DNA of 64,000 bases, taken from assembly GCA_019239415.1 (NCBI GenBank), contig JAFAZW010000039.1:25018-89017 (forward strand), given 5' to 3'. Shown here one piece after another: positions 38,731-45,393 of the stretch. How positions within the stretch are numbered: position 1 is the first letter of the stretch; the number at the start of each line of letters is the position of its first letter. Both the position numbers and the translations under genes were made by a program. The notes below the pieces were generated by a model that saw nothing but the letters and a program-made list of their open reading frames with translations, was not told the origin of the DNA and made no database searches. Origin of the DNA: Alphaproteobacteria bacterium (lineage in GTDB: Bacteria; Pseudomonadota; Alphaproteobacteria; Sphingomonadales; Sphingomonadaceae).

Positions 38731-39044
38731 GGACGGTGCCCGCCCGTCTGAGCGCATTGTGCTCGGGGCCCGCCTCGAGCTGAGCCTGTCGGAGACGAAA
38801 GGCAGGGCTTCGACTGGCTCAGCCCGAACGGTGTTTCCGGAGTCGAGCGGCCAAGGGAGGGGACACGTGTTCCTGTAACAAAGACTGTCCCCTCGGGGTC
38901 CTTTGCCCGTTCGGGCTGAGCCTGTCGAAGCCCTGTCTTTTCCCTTTCCTCCCGGAGAAGCAGGACAGGGCTTCGACAATGATTCAGGTGCGGATGTACC
39001 CCGGACATCCGCAGCCATGTCCGGGGGACATGGCGACCTGATCA
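38731..39044. repeat. Cluster of nested palindromic repeats
   Basis: This gene-free stretch is built from inverted copies of GTTCGGGCTGAGCCTGTCGA (38911-38931 and diverged or inverted copies at about 38776, 38811 and 38960), a GGGGACA...TGTCCCC element (about 38854-38893) and a CCCCGGACATCCG/ATGTCCGGGGG dyad (about 38999-39028). The right-hand GTTCGGGCTGA copy provides the stop codon of the small frame at 39045-39161. Confidence 0.7.
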
Positions 39045-39161
39045 TCAGCCCGAACGGGGTTTGCAAATCGGGGCGCTCTTCCCGCCGCCGCAGAGCGCCC
39101 GTTCCAGCCGTGCCGCCACCAGCGGCCGCTCCGCCAGGACGAGGAGCGCGCCGGGGATCAT
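39045..39161 (-). CDS. Possible small protein ending in a repeat
   Basis: A 38-codon frame that starts in the stop of the glyoxalase-like gene (ATGA overlap) and reads MIPGALLVLAERPLVAARLE then RALCGGGKSAPICKPRSG. The hydrophobic start and coupling suggest a real small gene, but the last codons and the TGA are provided by the palindromic GTTCGGGCTGA repeat, so it may be a truncated remnant. Confidence 0.35.
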   Translation of the reverse strand: MIPGALLVLAERPLVAARLERALCGGGKSAPICKPRSG

Positions 39162-39544
39162 GCCGCCGCCGCGTAGCTGACCACCTCGAACTCGATGCCG
39201 TCGCGGTCGAAGAAGTAGAAGCGGCGGCCGGGTTCGTAGTCGCCGTGCGCGAACGGGGTGAGGCCAGCCTCGGTGACGCGCGCCTCGACGGCGGCGAGGT
39301 CGTCGACGACGAGCGCGACGTGGTTGAGCGGCAGTCCCTTCTTCCAGCCGCGCGGGGTGCCGTCGCCGCCGGCGGCCGCATAGAGGGCGAGATACTGGTC
39401 GTCGGTGCCGACATGGACGGTGCGGCCGCCGGCGATCGACGCCCCCGCCCAGCGGATGCGCCACCCGAACAGCGTCGCGAGCAACGCCGCCGTCCGGTCC
39501 GGATCGGCCACCGTCACGTTCACATGCTCCAGCCTCGCCTGCAT
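39158..39544 (-). CDS. VOC family (glyoxalase/bleomycin-resistance-like) protein
   Basis: A 128-residue vicinal-oxygen-chelate protein with two beta-alpha-beta-beta-beta modules. Metal-ligand positions are visible: His in LEHVNVTV, His in LNHVALVV and Glu in IEFEVV. It is divergent from soxR, and a SoxR box lies in the shared promoter region, so it is a likely SoxR target in redox or electrophile stress. Its exact substrate is unknown. Confidence 0.85.
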   Translation of the reverse strand: MQARLEHVNVTVADPDRTAALLATLFGWRIRWAGASIAGGRTVHVGTDDQYLALYAAAGGDGTPRGWKKGLPLNHVALVVDDLAAVEARVTEAGLTPFAHGDYEPGRRFYFFDRDGIEFEVVSYAAAA

Positions 39545-39586
39545 TTCGCTCCTCCGTCAAACCGTCGTGCTTGCCGAGTCGTGCAA

Positions 39587-39604
39587 CCTCGACCTAAGTT
39601 GAGG
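39587..39604 (-). promoter_or_regulatory. SoxR box
   Basis: CCTCGACCTAAGTTGAGG is an 18-bp dyad matching the consensus SoxR operator CCTCAA-G/C-TTAACTTGAGG. On the minus strand it overlaps a TTGACC -35 element, the typical arrangement for a SoxR-activated promoter facing the glyoxalase-like gene. Confidence 0.75.
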
Positions 39605-39632
39605 TCAAGCTTCTTTTTCGCGCGGGCAGGAC

Positions 39633-40091
39633 ATGGCGGGACTGCTGACGATCGGGGACATTGCGCGGCGGACGGGGCTCTCCGTCTCGGCGATCCGCTT
39701 CTACGAGGCGAAGGGGCTGCTCAACCCGATCCGGACCGCCGGCAACCAGCGCCGCTACCTGCGCTCGGACATCAGGCGGCTGTCCTTCGCGATGATCGCG
39801 CAGAAGCTCGGCCTCAGCGTGCGCGAGATCGAGGCCGAGCTCGCCTGCCTGCCGATGGGGCGCGCGCCGACGCCGGCCGACTGGCAGGCGATCAGCGAGC
39901 GGATCCGGGCGCGGCTCGATGCGCGGATCGCCCTGCTCGAGCGGACGCGCGACCGGCTGGCCGGCTGTATCGGCTGCGGCTGCCTCTCGCTCGATCGCTG
40001 CGCGCTGTACAATCCCGGCGACGCCGCCGCCGCCGAGGGGCCGGGGCCGCGCTTCCTGCTCTCGGAGAATTTGGGGACACGTACCTTTTGA
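39633..40091 (+). CDS. soxR: Redox-sensitive transcriptional activator SoxR
   Basis: A 152-residue MerR-family regulator. The N-terminal helix-turn-helix reads TIGDIARRTGLSVSAIRFYE; the [2Fe-2S] ligands are C112-x2-C115-x-C117-x5-C123 (CIGCGCLSLDRC). Oxidation by redox-cycling compounds turns it into an activator. The final codons (LGTRTF) and the TGA come from a GGGGACACGTACC palindrome, so the native C-terminus was replaced or extended by the repeat. It is divergent from the VOC gene with a SoxR box between. Confidence 0.93.
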   Translation: MAGLLTIGDIARRTGLSVSAIRFYEAKGLLNPIRTAGNQRRYLRSDIRRLSFAMIAQKLGLSVREIEAELACLPMGRAPTPADWQAISERIRARLDARIALLERTRDRLAGCIGCGCLSLDRCALYNPGDAAAAEGPGPRFLLSENLGTRTF

Positions 40092-40109
40092 CAAAAGGTA
40101 CGTGTCCCC
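40073..40109. repeat. GGGGACACGTACCTTTT palindrome overlapping the soxR end
   Basis: A perfect 17-bp stem (GGGGACACGTACCTTTT and complement) with a GAC loop, followed by another GGGACGTGTCCCC unit to 40135. The left arm codes for the last residues and stop of SoxR. It may double as terminator. Confidence 0.85.
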
Positions 40110-40140
40110 GTTCCCTACGAAAGGGACGTGTCCCCGATTC

Positions 40141-41670
40141 CTACCGCTCGTCGGGATTGTCGTATTTGAACGGGTCGGTTTCGTTCGGCTGCGTCGGCAG
40201 CACGGCGTGGGGCAGCGGCTTGTCGGCGTTCGCCGCGGACAGGAGCAGGCTGGCGAGGATCACCGACGCCTGTCGCAGGTCCTGCGCGCGCAGATGGTCG
40301 AACGTGTCGAGGTTCGAGTGGTGGACGATCGACTCATATTCCAGCGGGTCCTGGATGAACTGGAAGGCGGGGACGCCGAGCCGCGCCATGCCGACATGGT
40401 CGGTGCCGCCGGTGGTCTGCGCCACGACCGCGCCCGCGCCCATGCTGGCGAAGGGCGACAGCCAGTCCTTCAGCACCGGCACGGCGGCGAGATTGCCTTC
40501 GGCATAGACGCCGCGGATCTTGCCCGAGCCGTTGTCGATGTTGAAGTAAGCGTTGAGGTCGCGAAAGCCGGGGCGCGGCGTCACCGGATAGGAATAGAGG
40601 TTCGAATAGGGTCCCGCCGCGGCGACGTCGGGATTGGTCGCCGGCGGCCGGGTGGCGAGATTCCGGTCGATCCAGGCGAAGGAGCCGAGCAGGCCCTGCT
40701 CCTCGCCGGCCCAGAGGGCGAAGCGGATGGTGCGCCTGGGCCTGATGCCGAGGCTGGCGATGAGCCGCGCCGCCTCCATCACCACCGCGCTGCCGGCGCC
40801 GTTGTCGGTGCCGGGAATCTCGGCGAAGATGTTGTAGGCGTTGCGGTCCGTGTCGGCGAAATGGACGTTGGCGTCGATCTCCAGCGTCACCGGGCCGGTC
40901 CTGGCAAGGCGGGCGAGCCGGCGATAATCCTCGGCGGCGATCTCGATCCCCGGCAGCGCCGGCGTCTCGCCGACCTTGTAGAGATAGCCCTCGCCGTGGA
41001 GGAGGCCGTTCGGCCGGTACGACATGCGTGCCCAGGCGACGGCGCCCTCCGCCTTGAGGAAGGCGTCGAGCTGGGCGGGGAAGGCCCGCCGCTTCGCCCG
41101 CCGCTCGAGCCCGTGCGGATCGTTGTTCGCCTGCGGATAGTCGTTGAGCTTCGCGATCTCCGCGTCGCCGAGGCGCGCGAAGTTCGGCGTCATGTTGTCC
41201 TTGGGATCGGCGGGGAGGGTGACGAGCACGATCTTGCCGCGCAGCTTGCCCCGCCACGCGTCGAAGTGGCGCACCTCGCTCATCGGCGCGACGACGACCG
41301 GCGCCGAGACCGGGCCGTTGGTCCCCGGCGTCCAGGCGACGGGGATGGCGCGCAGCGCCAGCGGCCGCGGCGCGGTCATCCTGATGCTCGCGCTCTCGAT
41401 CCACCAGCCGCGGCCGAAGTCGAACGGCTCGGCATGGACGTTCCTGAGGCCCCAGTCGCGGAATTGCTGCTGCGTCCACCTTTCCGCCTCGCGCATCGCC
41501 GGTGAGTTGGTGAGGCGCCCGCCGATCCGGTCGGCGAGATAGGCGGCCGTCTCCACCACCTGGCCATGGTTGAACTCGGCGTCGGCGAGGCGGTTGGCGG
41601 TCTCCGGGTCGGCGGCGGCCGCCGCGAACGGCATGGCGGTCAGCAACAGGGCGGCGGCGAGCTTGTGCAT
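40141..41670 (-). CDS. M28 family peptidase lacking an active-site segment
   Basis: A 509-residue exported protein (signal peptide to AAAAAD) of the M28 zinc peptidase family with a PA domain insert. The core reads NIFAEIPGTDNGAGSAVVMEAARL, then LWAGEEQGLLGS (catalytic Glu region), YFNIDNGSG and GGTDHVGM with later metal ligands. In family members a segment of some 20-25 residues with the H-x-D-S zinc/catalytic motif sits between IPGTD and the ATDNGAGS region. Here GTD runs directly into NGAGS, so the first zinc His and catalytic Asp are missing. The frame is otherwise intact; the enzyme is probably inactive or altered. Confidence 0.85.
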   Translation of the reverse strand: MHKLAAALLLTAMPFAAAAADPETANRLADAEFNHGQVVETAAYLADRIGGRLTNSPAMREAERWTQQQFRDWGLRNVHAEPFDFGRGWWIESASIRMTAPRPLALRAIPVAWTPGTNGPVSAPVVVAPMSEVRHFDAWRGKLRGKIVLVTLPADPKDNMTPNFARLGDAEIAKLNDYPQANNDPHGLERRAKRRAFPAQLDAFLKAEGAVAWARMSYRPNGLLHGEGYLYKVGETPALPGIEIAAEDYRRLARLARTGPVTLEIDANVHFADTDRNAYNIFAEIPGTDNGAGSAVVMEAARLIASLGIRPRRTIRFALWAGEEQGLLGSFAWIDRNLATRPPATNPDVAAAGPYSNLYSYPVTPRPGFRDLNAYFNIDNGSGKIRGVYAEGNLAAVPVLKDWLSPFASMGAGAVVAQTTGGTDHVGMARLGVPAFQFIQDPLEYESIVHHSNLDTFDHLRAQDLRQASVILASLLLSAANADKPLPHAVLPTQPNETDPFKYDNPDER

Positions 41671-41808
41671 GAATGTCCCCTCTTCTCTTCGGACCGCCGG
41701 TTAACCGCGCGGGGGCGCCCGGCGCAATCGCGCGATTGGGGCAATTAGGTGTGGAAAACGCGGCCGCGCCGGTTTGCGATTCGCCGGGGAGCGCCCATAA
41801 GTCCGGCC

Positions 41809-44800
41809 ATGGCCGCGCCCTACGTCCCGCTTCGCATCTTCTCCTGCTATTCGATGCTCGACGGCGCGATCGAGCCCAAGGCGATCGCGAAGCAGGCGAA
41901 GAAGCTCGACTTCCCGGCCGCCGCGCTGACCGACCGCAACGGGCTCTACGCGGCGATGGCCTTCACCGACGCGTGCAAGGCGGAAGGGGTGCAGCCGATC
42001 GTCGGCACGATGCTCGCGGTGGCCCGCCCGGGGACGCCGGAGGGCAAGGCGCCGGTCTTCGACTGGCTCGCCCTCTACGCGCAGAACGATCGCGGCTACG
42101 ACAATCTGTGCACCCTGGTGTCGGCGGCGCATCTGGGCCGGCCGCCGGAGGATCCGGCGCATGTCCTGCTCGGCGCGCTCGAGGGTCGGACCGACGGCCT
42201 CATCGCGCTCACCGCGGGCGCGGAGGGCGGGCTCGCGCGGCTCCTCGCCGAAGAGCAGGAGAAGCCGGCGCTCGAGCTGCTCGAGCGGCTCGAGGCGCTG
42301 TTCCCCGGGCGGCTCTACGTCGAGATCTGCCGGCGCGGCAACGACATCGAGGAGCGGTCCGAAGCCGCCCTCGTCGACCTCGCTTATGCGCGCGATCTGC
42401 CGCTGGTCGCCACCAATCCGGCCCAATATGGCGACGCGCCCTTCCACCCGGCGCACGACGCGATGCTGTGCATCGCGCAATCGAGCCAGATCGACCGCGA
42501 CGACCGCCAGCGCTCGTCGCCCGAGGCGTGGATCAAGCCGGCGGCCGAGATGCGGCGGCTGTTCGAGGACCTGCCCGAGGCGACCCAGAACACTGCCGTC
42601 GTCGCCCGCCGCTGCGCATTCGGCGCACCCAAGCGCAAGCCCATCCTCCCCTCCGTCGCGGGCGACCTCGAAGGCGAGGCCGAGCAGCTGAGGCGGGATG
42701 CGCGCGCGGGGCTGATCGAGCGGCTGCAAACCCTCTCCCTGCAGGGGAGAGGGACAGCGGGAGCGGAGCGACCGCAGGGTGAGGGGAGTGCGGGCCCTCA
42801 CCCGGCAGTGCCTGACGGCACTGCCACCCTCTCCCCTGCAGGGAGAGGGTTGGAAGAGCAGTACAAAGTGTATTTCGATCGGCTCGACTACGAGGTCGAG
42901 ATCATCGTCGGCATGGGCTTTCCAGGCTATTTCCTGATCGTCGCCGACTTCATCAAATGGGCGAAGGAGAACGGCATTCCGGTCGGGCCGGGCCGCGGCT
43001 CGGGAGCGGGCTCGGTGGTCGCCTGGGCGCTCACCATCACCGACCTCGACCCGATCCGCCTCGGCCTGCTGTTCGAGCGCTTCCTCAACCCCGAACGCGT
43101 GTCGATGCCGGACTTCGACGTCGACTTCTGCGAAACCCGCCGCGGCGAGGTGATCCGCTACGTCCAGCAGCGCTACGGCGCCGACAAGGTCGCGCAGATC
43201 ATCACCTTCGGAAAGCTGAAGGCCCGCGCCGTGCTCAAGGACACGGGCCGCGTCCTCCAGATGCCCTACGGCCAGGTCGACCGGCTGGCGAAGCTCATCC
43301 CCAACCACCCGACCGACCCGTGGACGCTGGAGCGGGCGCTGAACGGCGTCTCGGAGCTGGCCGAGGAATATCGCAGCGAGCCGGACGTGCGGCGCCTGTT
43401 CGACCTCGCGATGAAGCTGGAGGGACTGCCGCGCCACAGCTCGACGCACGCCGCCGGCGTCGTCATCGGCGACCGGCCGCTCGACAAGCTCGTCCCGCTG
43501 TACCGCGACCCGCGCTCCGACATGCCGGTCACGCAGTTCGACATGAAATATGTCGAGGCCGCGGGCCTGGTGAAGTTCGACTTCCTCGGCCTCAAGACCC
43601 TCTCGGTCCTCCAGAAGGCGGTGCAGATGCTCGCGAAGCGCGGCATCGCCGTCGACCTCGACCGCGTCGCCTGGGACGATCCGGCCGTCTACGAGCTCCT
43701 CAAGCGGGGCGACACGGTCGGCGTGTTCCAGCTCGAATCGGAGGGCATGCGCCGCACCCTCGCGGCGGTGAAGCCGACCTGCTTCGAGGACATCATCGCC
43801 CTCGTCTCCCTCTACCGGCCGGGGCCGATGGACAACATCCCGACCTTCGGCGCGCGCAAGAACGGCCGGGAGGACATCGCCTACCCGCACCCGATGCTCG
43901 AGAACGTGCTCAAGGAGACCTACGGCATCTTCGTCTACCAGGAGCAGGTGATGGAGGCCGCGAAGGTGCTCGCCGGCTACAGTCTCGGCGAGGCCGATCT
44001 GTTGCGCCGGGCGATGGGCAAGAAGATCAAGGCCGAGATGGACGCGCAGCGCGAGCGGTTCGTGACCGGTTGCGCGGCCAACGGCATCGCCGGGCCCAAG
44101 GCCAACGAGCTGTTCGACTTGATCGACAAGTTCGCCGGCTACGGCTTCAACAAGAGCCACGCCGCCGCCTACGCCCTCGTCGCCTACCAGACGGCGTGGC
44201 TGAAGGCGCACCATCCGGTCGAGTTCTTCGCCGCCTCGATGTGCTTCGACATGCACCAGACCGACAAGCTCGCCATCTTCATCGACGACATGCGGCGGCT
44301 CGAGGTCGAATGCCTGCCGCCGTCGGTCAACGACAGCGAGGCCGAGTTCGCGGTCGAGGAAGCGGCGGAGGGCAAGCTCGCCGTCCGCTACGCGCTCGGC
44401 GCGCTCAAGGGCGTGGGCGAGAGGGCGATGGAGCAGCTGGTCGACGAGCGGCGGGGCAAGGGCCGGTTCAAGTCGCTCGACGATTTCGCCGAGCGCGTCG
44501 ACCCGCGCCTCCTCAACCGCCGCCAGATCGAAAGCCTCGCCGGCGGCGGCGCCTTCGACGCCCTCAACCCGAACCGCTCCTCGGTGTTCGCCGCGGCGGA
44601 GACGATCCTCGCCCACGCCGCCAGCGCCGCCGACGCGCGCGAGAGCGGGCAGGGCGGCCTGTTCGGCGGCGAAGCGAACGTCGTCCCGATCCGCCTTCCC
44701 GTCGCGGCCGCCTGGACGCTGGCGCAGCGCATGGCGGCGGAGAAGGAGGCGTTCGGCTTCTACTTCTCCGCGCATCCGGTCGACCGCTACCGCCACCTCG

Positions 44801-45393
44801 CCGAAGCGCATGGCGCCAGGACCTATGCCGCCCTCGCCGCCTTGCCTGCGCCGGCGGACGGCGGCCGGACCAATGCCGTCATGGCCGGCCTCGTCGAGGA
44901 TGCGCGCTGGCGCACCTCCGCCAAGGGCCGCCGCTACATGATGGCGACGATGTCCGATTCCTCGGGCCAGTTCGTCGCCACCGTGTTCGACGACATGGCT
45001 TCGGCCGAGGTGGAGGGCGCCGCCAAGTCCGGCGCCTGCGCGCTCCTTAACGTCGAGCTCGACCGCCGCCCCGGAGAGGAGGCGCCGCGCGTCACGGTCC
45101 GTTCGCTGCAGCTGTTCGAAGCCTTGTCCAAGCGCACCCGCCTCCAGCTCGAGGTCGAGGTGGACGAGGCGGACGCCGTCCACCGCCTCGCCGAAGCGGT
45201 CGGCGACGAGCGGGGCGGCAACGGCGAGCTGCGCCTCAAGGTCCGTCTCGAGGACGGGCGCGAGGCGGAGCTGGTGCTGGGCCGCGACTTCCGCCTCGAC
45301 GCCGAGCTGGCCGCGCGGATCGAGCGCGTCCCCGGCGTCGCCGCCGTCCGCCTCTCCGCCGCCGCCCCGCCGCGGCTTGCGCTCGTCGGCTGA
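41809..45393 (+). CDS. dnaE: DNA polymerase III subunit alpha with in-frame repeat insertion
   Basis: A 1194-residue replicative polymerase. Domains in order: PHP (PLRIFSCYSMLDGAIEPKAI, LTDRNGLYAAM), palm with catalytic PDFDVDFCETRRGEVIRY, fingers (HSSTHAAGVVIGDRPLDKLV, FQLESEGMRRTLAAVKPT, LYRPGPMDNIP), and C-terminal helix-hairpin-helix, OB (NAVMAGLVEDARWR) and tau-binding parts. The ATG at 41809 fits conserved MAAPYVPLRIF. Residues about 308-347, between GLIERL and EQYKVYFDRLDYEV, are coded by a palindromic repeat (42731-42849) absent from the normal family. The gene must be functional if it is the only dnaE, so the insert is apparently tolerated. Confidence 0.96.
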   Translation: MAAPYVPLRIFSCYSMLDGAIEPKAIAKQAKKLDFPAAALTDRNGLYAAMAFTDACKAEGVQPIVGTMLAVARPGTPEGKAPVFDWLALYAQNDRGYDNLCTLVSAAHLGRPPEDPAHVLLGALEGRTDGLIALTAGAEGGLARLLAEEQEKPALELLERLEALFPGRLYVEICRRGNDIEERSEAALVDLAYARDLPLVATNPAQYGDAPFHPAHDAMLCIAQSSQIDRDDRQRSSPEAWIKPAAEMRRLFEDLPEATQNTAVVARRCAFGAPKRKPILPSVAGDLEGEAEQLRRDARAGLIERLQTLSLQGRGTAGAERPQGEGSAGPHPAVPDGTATLSPAGRGLEEQYKVYFDRLDYEVEIIVGMGFPGYFLIVADFIKWAKENGIPVGPGRGSGAGSVVAWALTITDLDPIRLGLLFERFLNPERVSMPDFDVDFCETRRGEVIRYVQQRYGADKVAQIITFGKLKARAVLKDTGRVLQMPYGQVDRLAKLIPNHPTDPWTLERALNGVSELAEEYRSEPDVRRLFDLAMKLEGLPRHSSTHAAGVVIGDRPLDKLVPLYRDPRSDMPVTQFDMKYVEAAGLVKFDFLGLKTLSVLQKAVQMLAKRGIAVDLDRVAWDDPAVYELLKRGDTVGVFQLESEGMRRTLAAVKPTCFEDIIALVSLYRPGPMDNIPTFGARKNGREDIAYPHPMLENVLKETYGIFVYQEQVMEAAKVLAGYSLGEADLLRRAMGKKIKAEMDAQRERFVTGCAANGIAGPKANELFDLIDKFAGYGFNKSHAAAYALVAYQTAWLKAHHPVEFFAASMCFDMHQTDKLAIFIDDMRRLEVECLPPSVNDSEAEFAVEEAAEGKLAVRYALGALKGVGERAMEQLVDERRGKGRFKSLDDFAERVDPRLLNRRQIESLAGGGAFDALNPNRSSVFAAAETILAHAASAADARESGQGGLFGGEANVVPIRLPVAAAWTLAQRMAAEKEAFGFYFSAHPVDRYRHLAEAHGARTYAALAALPAPADGGRTNAVMAGLVEDARWRTSAKGRRYMMATMSDSSGQFVATVFDDMASAEVEGAAKSGACALLNVELDRRPGEEAPRVTVRSLQLFEALSKRTRLQLEVEVDEADAVHRLAEAVGDERGGNGELRLKVRLEDGREAELVLGRDFRLDAELAARIERVPGVAAVRLSAAAPPRLALVG
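42731..42849. repeat. Palindromic repeat inserted in dnaE
   Basis: A 119-bp element whose ends are inverted copies of CCCTCTCCCTGCAGGGGAGA (each itself palindromic), with inner hairpins GTGAGGG...CCCTCAC and GGCAGTGCC...GGCACTGCC. The CCCTCTCC/GGAGAGGG type is common between genes in proteobacteria; here it lies in frame inside dnaE and is read as SLQGRG...SPAGRG. Confidence 0.85.

Follow-up and report, generated by a model that had tools for sequence, protein, structure and literature searches.

The dnaE gene of this member of the Sphingomonadaceae, located in a window of 64,000 nucleotides (the whole stretch of DNA analysed), carries a multicopy palindromic repeat in frame. The best explanation, to which a probability of about 0.8 is assigned, is a tolerated insertion at the predicted tip of a helical hairpin of DnaE, accompanied by a putative clasp at its base. 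The repeat probably entered dnaE by insertion. Read in frame, it would add to the hairpin tip a loop of 40 residues for which disorder is predicted, and it was likely kept because additional residues are better tolerated at the tip than elsewhere in the protein. In many DnaE proteins with a long linker, a Glu/Arg salt bridge appears to be replaced by a hydrophobic clasp of Ile/Val and Tyr/Phe, which would hold the stem shut beneath the added loop. The interest of the insertion lies in its recurrence and in a testable two-residue signature. Insert-free sisters, at least three repeat families, apparent remnants and the signature together provide a replicated natural experiment at one DnaE loop, and point to a place at which bacterial DnaE may accept additional loops.

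The gene dnaE, encoding the DNA polymerase III alpha subunit, occupies 41809..45393 on the plus strand (1194 aa from the ATG at 41809), and its frame is already open from a GTG at 41749 (1214 aa to 45393). The product matches NCBIfam PRK05673 with 1329 bits (cut-off 1002) and Pfam DNA_pol3_alpha over residues 350-594. The check for a second dnaE gave a divergent DnaE-like polymerase on contig C3 (37% identity over residues 358-853) and no second dnaE of the same type in the genome.

The element is confirmed as a real, well-supported insertion in dnaE. It belongs to family C (CCCTCTCC type) and spans 123 bp on the plus strand (42729..42851), of which 42730-42849 is exactly 40 codons, DnaE residues 308-347. 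The inverted-repeat comparison gave a left arm AACCCTCTCCCTGCAGGGGAGAGGG at 42729..42753 and a right arm at 42827..42851, also on the plus strand, which is its perfect reverse complement over 25 nt; the inverted arms extend to 42724-42753 and 42827-42856 (30 nt, 93% complementary), and each arm is itself a near-palindrome centred on TGCA. RNA folding placed two inner hairpins between the arms, GGGTGAGGG ... CCCTCACCC at 42777..42803 and GGCAGTGCC-TGAC-GGCACTGCC at 42804..42825. As RNA, the element has a folding energy of -107.4 kcal/mol, whereas shuffled sequences average -61.3 (z -10.7), and none of 200 shuffles was as good. Its translation, TLSLQGRG...LSPAGRG, contains no stop, and four of the six frames of the element are open. 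The original prediction of a palindrome read in frame as about 40 residues was thus borne out, with the frame open throughout; the 119-bp element that it described is present at 123 bp, and its ends are inverted (reverse-complement) repeats, not mirror images as had been proposed.

Terminal inverted repeats of the MITE type are present in the form of the 25-nt perfect arms, and the repeat search found no direct repeat of at least 12 nt flanking them as a target-site duplication. The element ends in AACCCTCTCC...GGGTT with no GTAG/CGTC tag; GTAG occurs on neither strand, and CGTC occurs only internally, in the complement of an inner hairpin loop. The plasmid collection gave no match to the element at E 1e-8. 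The search of Rfam gave only two matches, both to one animal miRNA family, with 21 bits against a gathering score of 160, and these were discarded.

The arm pattern of family C gave 24 strand matches, representing 15 distinct places in the genome (two being the dnaE arms), while the reversed control of the pattern gave none, in agreement with the proposal that the element is of a dispersed-repeat type. With the whole element as query, 26 matches were obtained at E <= 0.01, counting the self match and both strands of each palindrome, and several longer copies are present elsewhere in the genome. Domain scans covered nine frames that span the repeat, from six of the 14 repeat loci listed. A copy of the same family was observed in frame in the pyruvate dehydrogenase E1-beta gene (L002 1501-1620, C97:53867-53986; ORF L002:381-2519, minus strand), between the lipoyl domain and the transketolase-like domain. 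One match to the Y1 (RAYT-type) transposase family PF01797 was found in the genome (L337 1414-2061, contig C35), apparently frame-disrupted, and no family A or C arms were found within the 3.3 kb fetched around this sole match.

In the genus, 26 genomes were searched and 25 matched; the dnaE linker was short in 23 of the 25 read, and repeat-derived inserts were present only in this genome and in G220. Compared with the short form, the dnaE studied here is longer by a net 105 nt (35 codons), with the element in place of about 18 nt of the relatives' linker. The insert is absent from most genus mates, and, as a correction to the original prediction, insertion at this loop is not peculiar to this genome.

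At least three apparently unrelated palindrome families were found in the same DnaE linker of sphingomonads, in several frames; named carriers include Sphingomonas gilva ZDH117 and Sphingomonas sp. 37zxx. Family A gives linker peptides of the type VRPEPVEG...FDKLSPNG or, in another frame, FVPSEVEG...STSLGTN, family B gives PGESRGP...DPGLRRG, and family C is the type of the dnaE described here. Among the 120 DnaE proteins listed with the linker as query, 86 had at least 13 residues between the flank positions, a frequency that is overstated, as is the flank association in this sample, because the query itself held the insert, Ile303 and Tyr352; the long linkers of this sample mostly translate at least three families, judged by peptide signatures. 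This sample makes up most rows of the 224-row tree, the 190-protein column scan and the 13-pair test used below; the flank-residue counts of a family draw and a palm-chosen sample served as controls for its bias. In the family draw (the best 150 of 199 genomes searched, with 47 further genomes with a match and two without a match outside the count), palindromic inserts were present in 6 of 150 linkers, this genome included (inverted-repeat score >=13; next score 11). In loci L055-L106 of a scan across a genome collection, mostly named Sphingomonadales, they were present in 6 of 51 readable linkers (score >=12), namely L057, L060, L061, L065, L087 and L090. In the palm-chosen sample, whose query was the palm region of an insert-free relative, 28 of 115 linkers were long and 25 of these carried a family signature, with 28 to 103 residues between the flanks; 5 of the 120 proteins were not parsed, including the truncated P0189, which apparently has a long linker. 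The repeat-type labels of proteins are peptide patterns chosen by eye, and by this means L073 (short) and L015 (no palindrome) were wrongly labelled A, the label B of P0071 is doubtful, and the label A of the Novosphingobium-like long linkers L020, L024, L089, P0042 and P0084 marks at most an old palindrome.

In every carrier genome counted, the inserted family is multicopy. Family A arms numbered 46+46 in G000, 67+65 in G171, 65+68 in G028 and 73+69 in G091, arms of a second A type 90+93 in G149, and family B arms 40+37 in G149 and 134+137 in the genome of L087, which has a B insert in dnaE and no arms of the first A pattern. The reversed-pattern controls for A, second A and B arms gave none in all 17 genomes of each count. 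These families are multicopy also in the insert-free genomes G129 and G053, and the inserted family can be outnumbered by another: G000 has more A than C arms and G149 more A than B arms. The insert type also differs between close DnaE proteins: outside the linker, identity is 96.4% between L011 (A) and L061 (C), and 91.8% between the DnaE of this genome (C) and P0007 (A).

Several other linkers are noteworthy. P0026, a DnaE of 1299 aa, has two family B units in one linker. A long non-repeat linker is common to a Novosphingobium/Erythrobacter-like group (L016-L025, L092-L102), and the linker of G016 still forms a family A palindrome (ELVEAL...FDKLRANG), so this shared linker may descend from an old insertion. 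In L113, an alphaproteobacterial MAG outside the sphingomonad loci, the dnaE linker holds extra residues SDRPEEVEESSNDADRKRSLDCARGD with a weak palindrome score of 8, which we take to resemble another repeat family.

To place the insert in the protein, structure models and full-length alignments were compared. In the AlphaFold2 model of P0096, an insert-free close relative, helices at 286-305 and 313-333 are joined by a turn of 7 residues, with 351-400 poorly predicted. In that of the DnaE studied here, the stem is the same and helices are predicted at 287-315 and 343-351; the pLDDT falls below 50 at 315-341, and the immediately adjoining blocks average 89-95. The other stretches below 50 are 478-494, 498-503 and 543-548. 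Both models match solved DnaE structures, and in E. coli DnaE the insert site falls at about chain positions 306-320. The models thus put the insert, as a disordered segment, at the tip of a predicted helical hairpin. This site directly precedes the DNA_pol3_alpha match, in agreement with the placement between PHP and palm in the original prediction; the surface exposure that the latter assumed is probable, judging from the low pLDDT and the position at the tip. The reading of a dispersed palindrome absorbed by a loop is consistent with the relatives, the multicopy search and the structure model alike. In 87 full-length DnaE (including the one studied here), insertions of at least 20 residues were found in the linker of 10 and nowhere else, and linker insertions of at least 12 residues in 25; elsewhere, single insertions of 13 to 17 residues were seen three times, and an N-terminal extension of 16 residues once. 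At the position equivalent to residue 851, L065 has a 17-residue insertion with a CTCCCCT-GA-AGGGGAG hairpin, which may be a further small palindrome within its dnaE.

The flanks of the insert differ as well. Codon 303 (Ile, 42715..42717, plus strand) is Glu in most relatives without insert, and codon 352 (Tyr, 42862..42864, plus strand) is Arg. In a scan of 1,147 aligned columns in 190 DnaE (123 long), the columns most associated with the insert state were 352 (corrected mutual information 0.63) and 303 (0.47), followed by a next value of 0.19, with Tyr/Phe at 352 and Ile/Val at 303 where an insert is present and Arg and Glu where it is absent. In the palm-chosen sample, a hydrophobic 303 together with an aromatic 352 was present in 26 of 28 long linkers versus 1 of 87 short ones. 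The association was weaker in the family draw and mostly at 352, which was aromatic in 15 of 26 long linkers versus 2 of 117 (Fisher 1e-11, phylogeny ignored), while 303 was hydrophobic in 17 of 26 versus 31 of 117; seven Novosphingobium-like long linkers have Val/Ile at 352. It was weaker still in the named loci (7/24 versus 0/26). Nine linkers were not parsed when the flank residues were read, all of the short kind by eye. In 13 independent tree pairs on well-supported branches, both residues changed the same way in 7.5 on average and the opposite way in none (median p 0.016); the palm-chosen sample provided four such pairs, three the same and none opposite, which is not significant.

In the short form, the equivalents of 303 and 352 lie on facing helices, three positions from the turn, from which we infer the change from salt bridge to hydrophobic clasp. 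Among the 13 carriers of a palindrome at the DNA level, both residues have changed in six (G000, G220, L057, L060, L065 and L090). Only 352 has changed in G149, G091 and G171, G016 has Val/Val, L061 has Lys/Thr, and G028 and L087 carry palindromes yet keep the Glu/Arg flanks. As only six of the 13 carriers show both changes, the clasp is not required and would be at best helpful; any function of the insert loop and of the clasp is putative. A bolder reading treats the tip as a two-state adaptor, with Glu/Arg as a closed latch and Ile/Tyr as an open latch that accepts palindromes of any family. This is a tentative idea, more doubtful than probable, and it is weakened by the same count of only six in 13 carriers. 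If true, selfish repeats would have in sphingomonads a standing, reused port of entry into the replicative polymerase, whose sequence they extend, and the change of latch would compensate for such insertions and help them to survive.

The chief rival for the flank pair is co-inheritance on short tracts, in which an old open form of the linker with Ile303/Tyr352 spreads by short-tract recombination and the repeats are swapped inside it. The flanks of the palm-chosen long linkers are mostly the same residues (Ile in 22/28, Tyr in 25/28), and motifs such as LE.KY are shared beside different inserts, as expected from such exchange, but Val, Leu, Phe and Trp also occur at the flanks. The trees bear on the same question. 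On a tree built from 224 palm regions, a few wrongly labelled rows among them, insert type requires at least 55 changes; the long-linker state in the palm-chosen sample requires at least 22. Both are FastTree trees with many weak branches, on which parsimony cannot tell gain from loss. Eight separate 100-column windows of the alignment, near and far from the linker and excluding the far C-terminal part, required 19-22 changes each (106 rows, 26 long). As none of them gave fewer than 19 changes, no long co-inherited tract is visible there. Allele exchange is on the whole unlikely, although it deserves the most serious consideration among the rivals.

A domesticated loop, by which the long-linker DnaE would gain a partner contact, speed or fidelity with the repeats as raw material, is improbable. 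Domestication would fit the fact that inserts persist in an essential polymerase, the altered flanks of many carriers and the long non-repeat linkers common to the Novosphingobium-like group. However, families, frames and lengths differ (the flanks are 28 to 103 residues apart in the 25 signature-bearing palm-chosen rows), P0055 and P0057 look like partly deleted remnants, and inserts of the same type are on average 56% identical where the rest of the protein is 89% identical (102 pairs, not independent). The short turn averages 52% identity in insert-free pairs (110, not independent), much like the inserts, so that insert conservation appears to give no sign of domestication.

A true target site, with a DNA sequence in this region of the gene recognised by the machinery that mobilises the repeats, is quite improbable. 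The linker is the single site of long insertions in the 87 full-length genes, and CCCTCTC is present in the linker of the insert-free relative G207, but the palindromes that arrive are of unrelated families, and their first residue lies at varying distances from the stem. Because of these two features a sequence-specific target is less likely; in addition, the other in-frame copy found in this genome also lies in an inter-domain linker, that of pdhB. The arrival of unrelated multicopy families at one tip indicates that the recurrence is probably due to tolerance filtered by selection and not to a target sequence.

An assembly artefact is very unlikely. Repeats are known places of misassembly, and the assembly of this genome comprises 103 contigs, but the contig in question is 89 kb long and has dnaE in one frame on both sides of the element, and the same architecture is present in separate records, including named strains (L060, L061). 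Equally remote is removal of the insert after transcription or skipping by the ribosome, which the very stable RNA hairpin (-107 kcal/mol) might suggest, since all 150 family-draw linkers, inserts included, are in frame without a stop, which removal would not need, and no intein family or domain is among the Pfam and NCBIfam matches of DnaE, the insert being of only 40 residues. In-frame TAG counts in G003, G134 and G063 were set aside, as they sit at the natural end of dnaE.

Tolerated insertion at the hairpin tip can be compared with known systems. Reports of intragenic palindromes in bacteria go back to about 2000 (Ogata et al., cited in PMC2229807) and for the most part list isolated cases. 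According to the sections available of PMC3767692, the Rickettsia palindromic elements RPE-4 and RPE-6 are present in the DNA polymerase III alpha gene (114 bp in R. japonica), and hotspot insertion is one of two possibilities discussed. The resemblance to these elements noticed in the original prediction is well founded at the gene level: RPEs are palindromes of about 115 bp in frame in conserved genes, DnaE included, they occupy solvent-exposed places, and different groups occur at or near one site, as here (PMC3767692, same sections). The dnaE element is likewise a palindrome of 100-150 bp in frame in a conserved gene. The differences are the sphingomonad host (the nearest named DnaE are those of Allosphingosinicella, Sphingosinicella and Sphingomonas, and not of Rickettsiales), the apparently unrelated families, the common insert-free orthologues and the flank change with the insert, and the RPE paper, in those sections, favours one common origin of the groups at each site (PMC3767692). 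A search with an AT-rich pattern for the Rickettsia insert position in 385 genomes of the class, followed by inspection of 20 regions and a closer search around one candidate, gave no genome recognisable as Rickettsia.

Intragenic REPs are reported in the accessible portions of PMC3733652 for S. alaskensis, E. litoralis, DnaE2 genes and the DnaE of R. conorii. These GTAG/CGTC REPs are multicopy dispersed palindromes inside genes, as is the dnaE element, whereas the latter ends without either tag; in the same portions, inserts in genes of one category lie at different sites, except for recB in two Xanthomonas species. The review by Delihas (PMC2229807, in part) deals with small mobile repeats fused in frame to genes, which resemble the present case as translated palindromes in conserved genes, and cites an RPE-bearing Rickettsia guanylate kinase that is still active with changed substrate affinity; that part of the review describes no recurrent use of one loop by several families. 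Intragenic palindromes, one in DnaE, were thus known already, and the multi-family recurrence at one loop and the residue pair appear to be new: a literature search that covered few subscription journals turned up neither the 303/352 pair nor any description of this linker as a recurrent multi-family site.

A family A arm was also observed in the window upstream of dnaE, at 38916. The ORF with a TTG start at 38903-40507 begins with the translation of this arm, VRAEPVEA, and its call is therefore doubtful.
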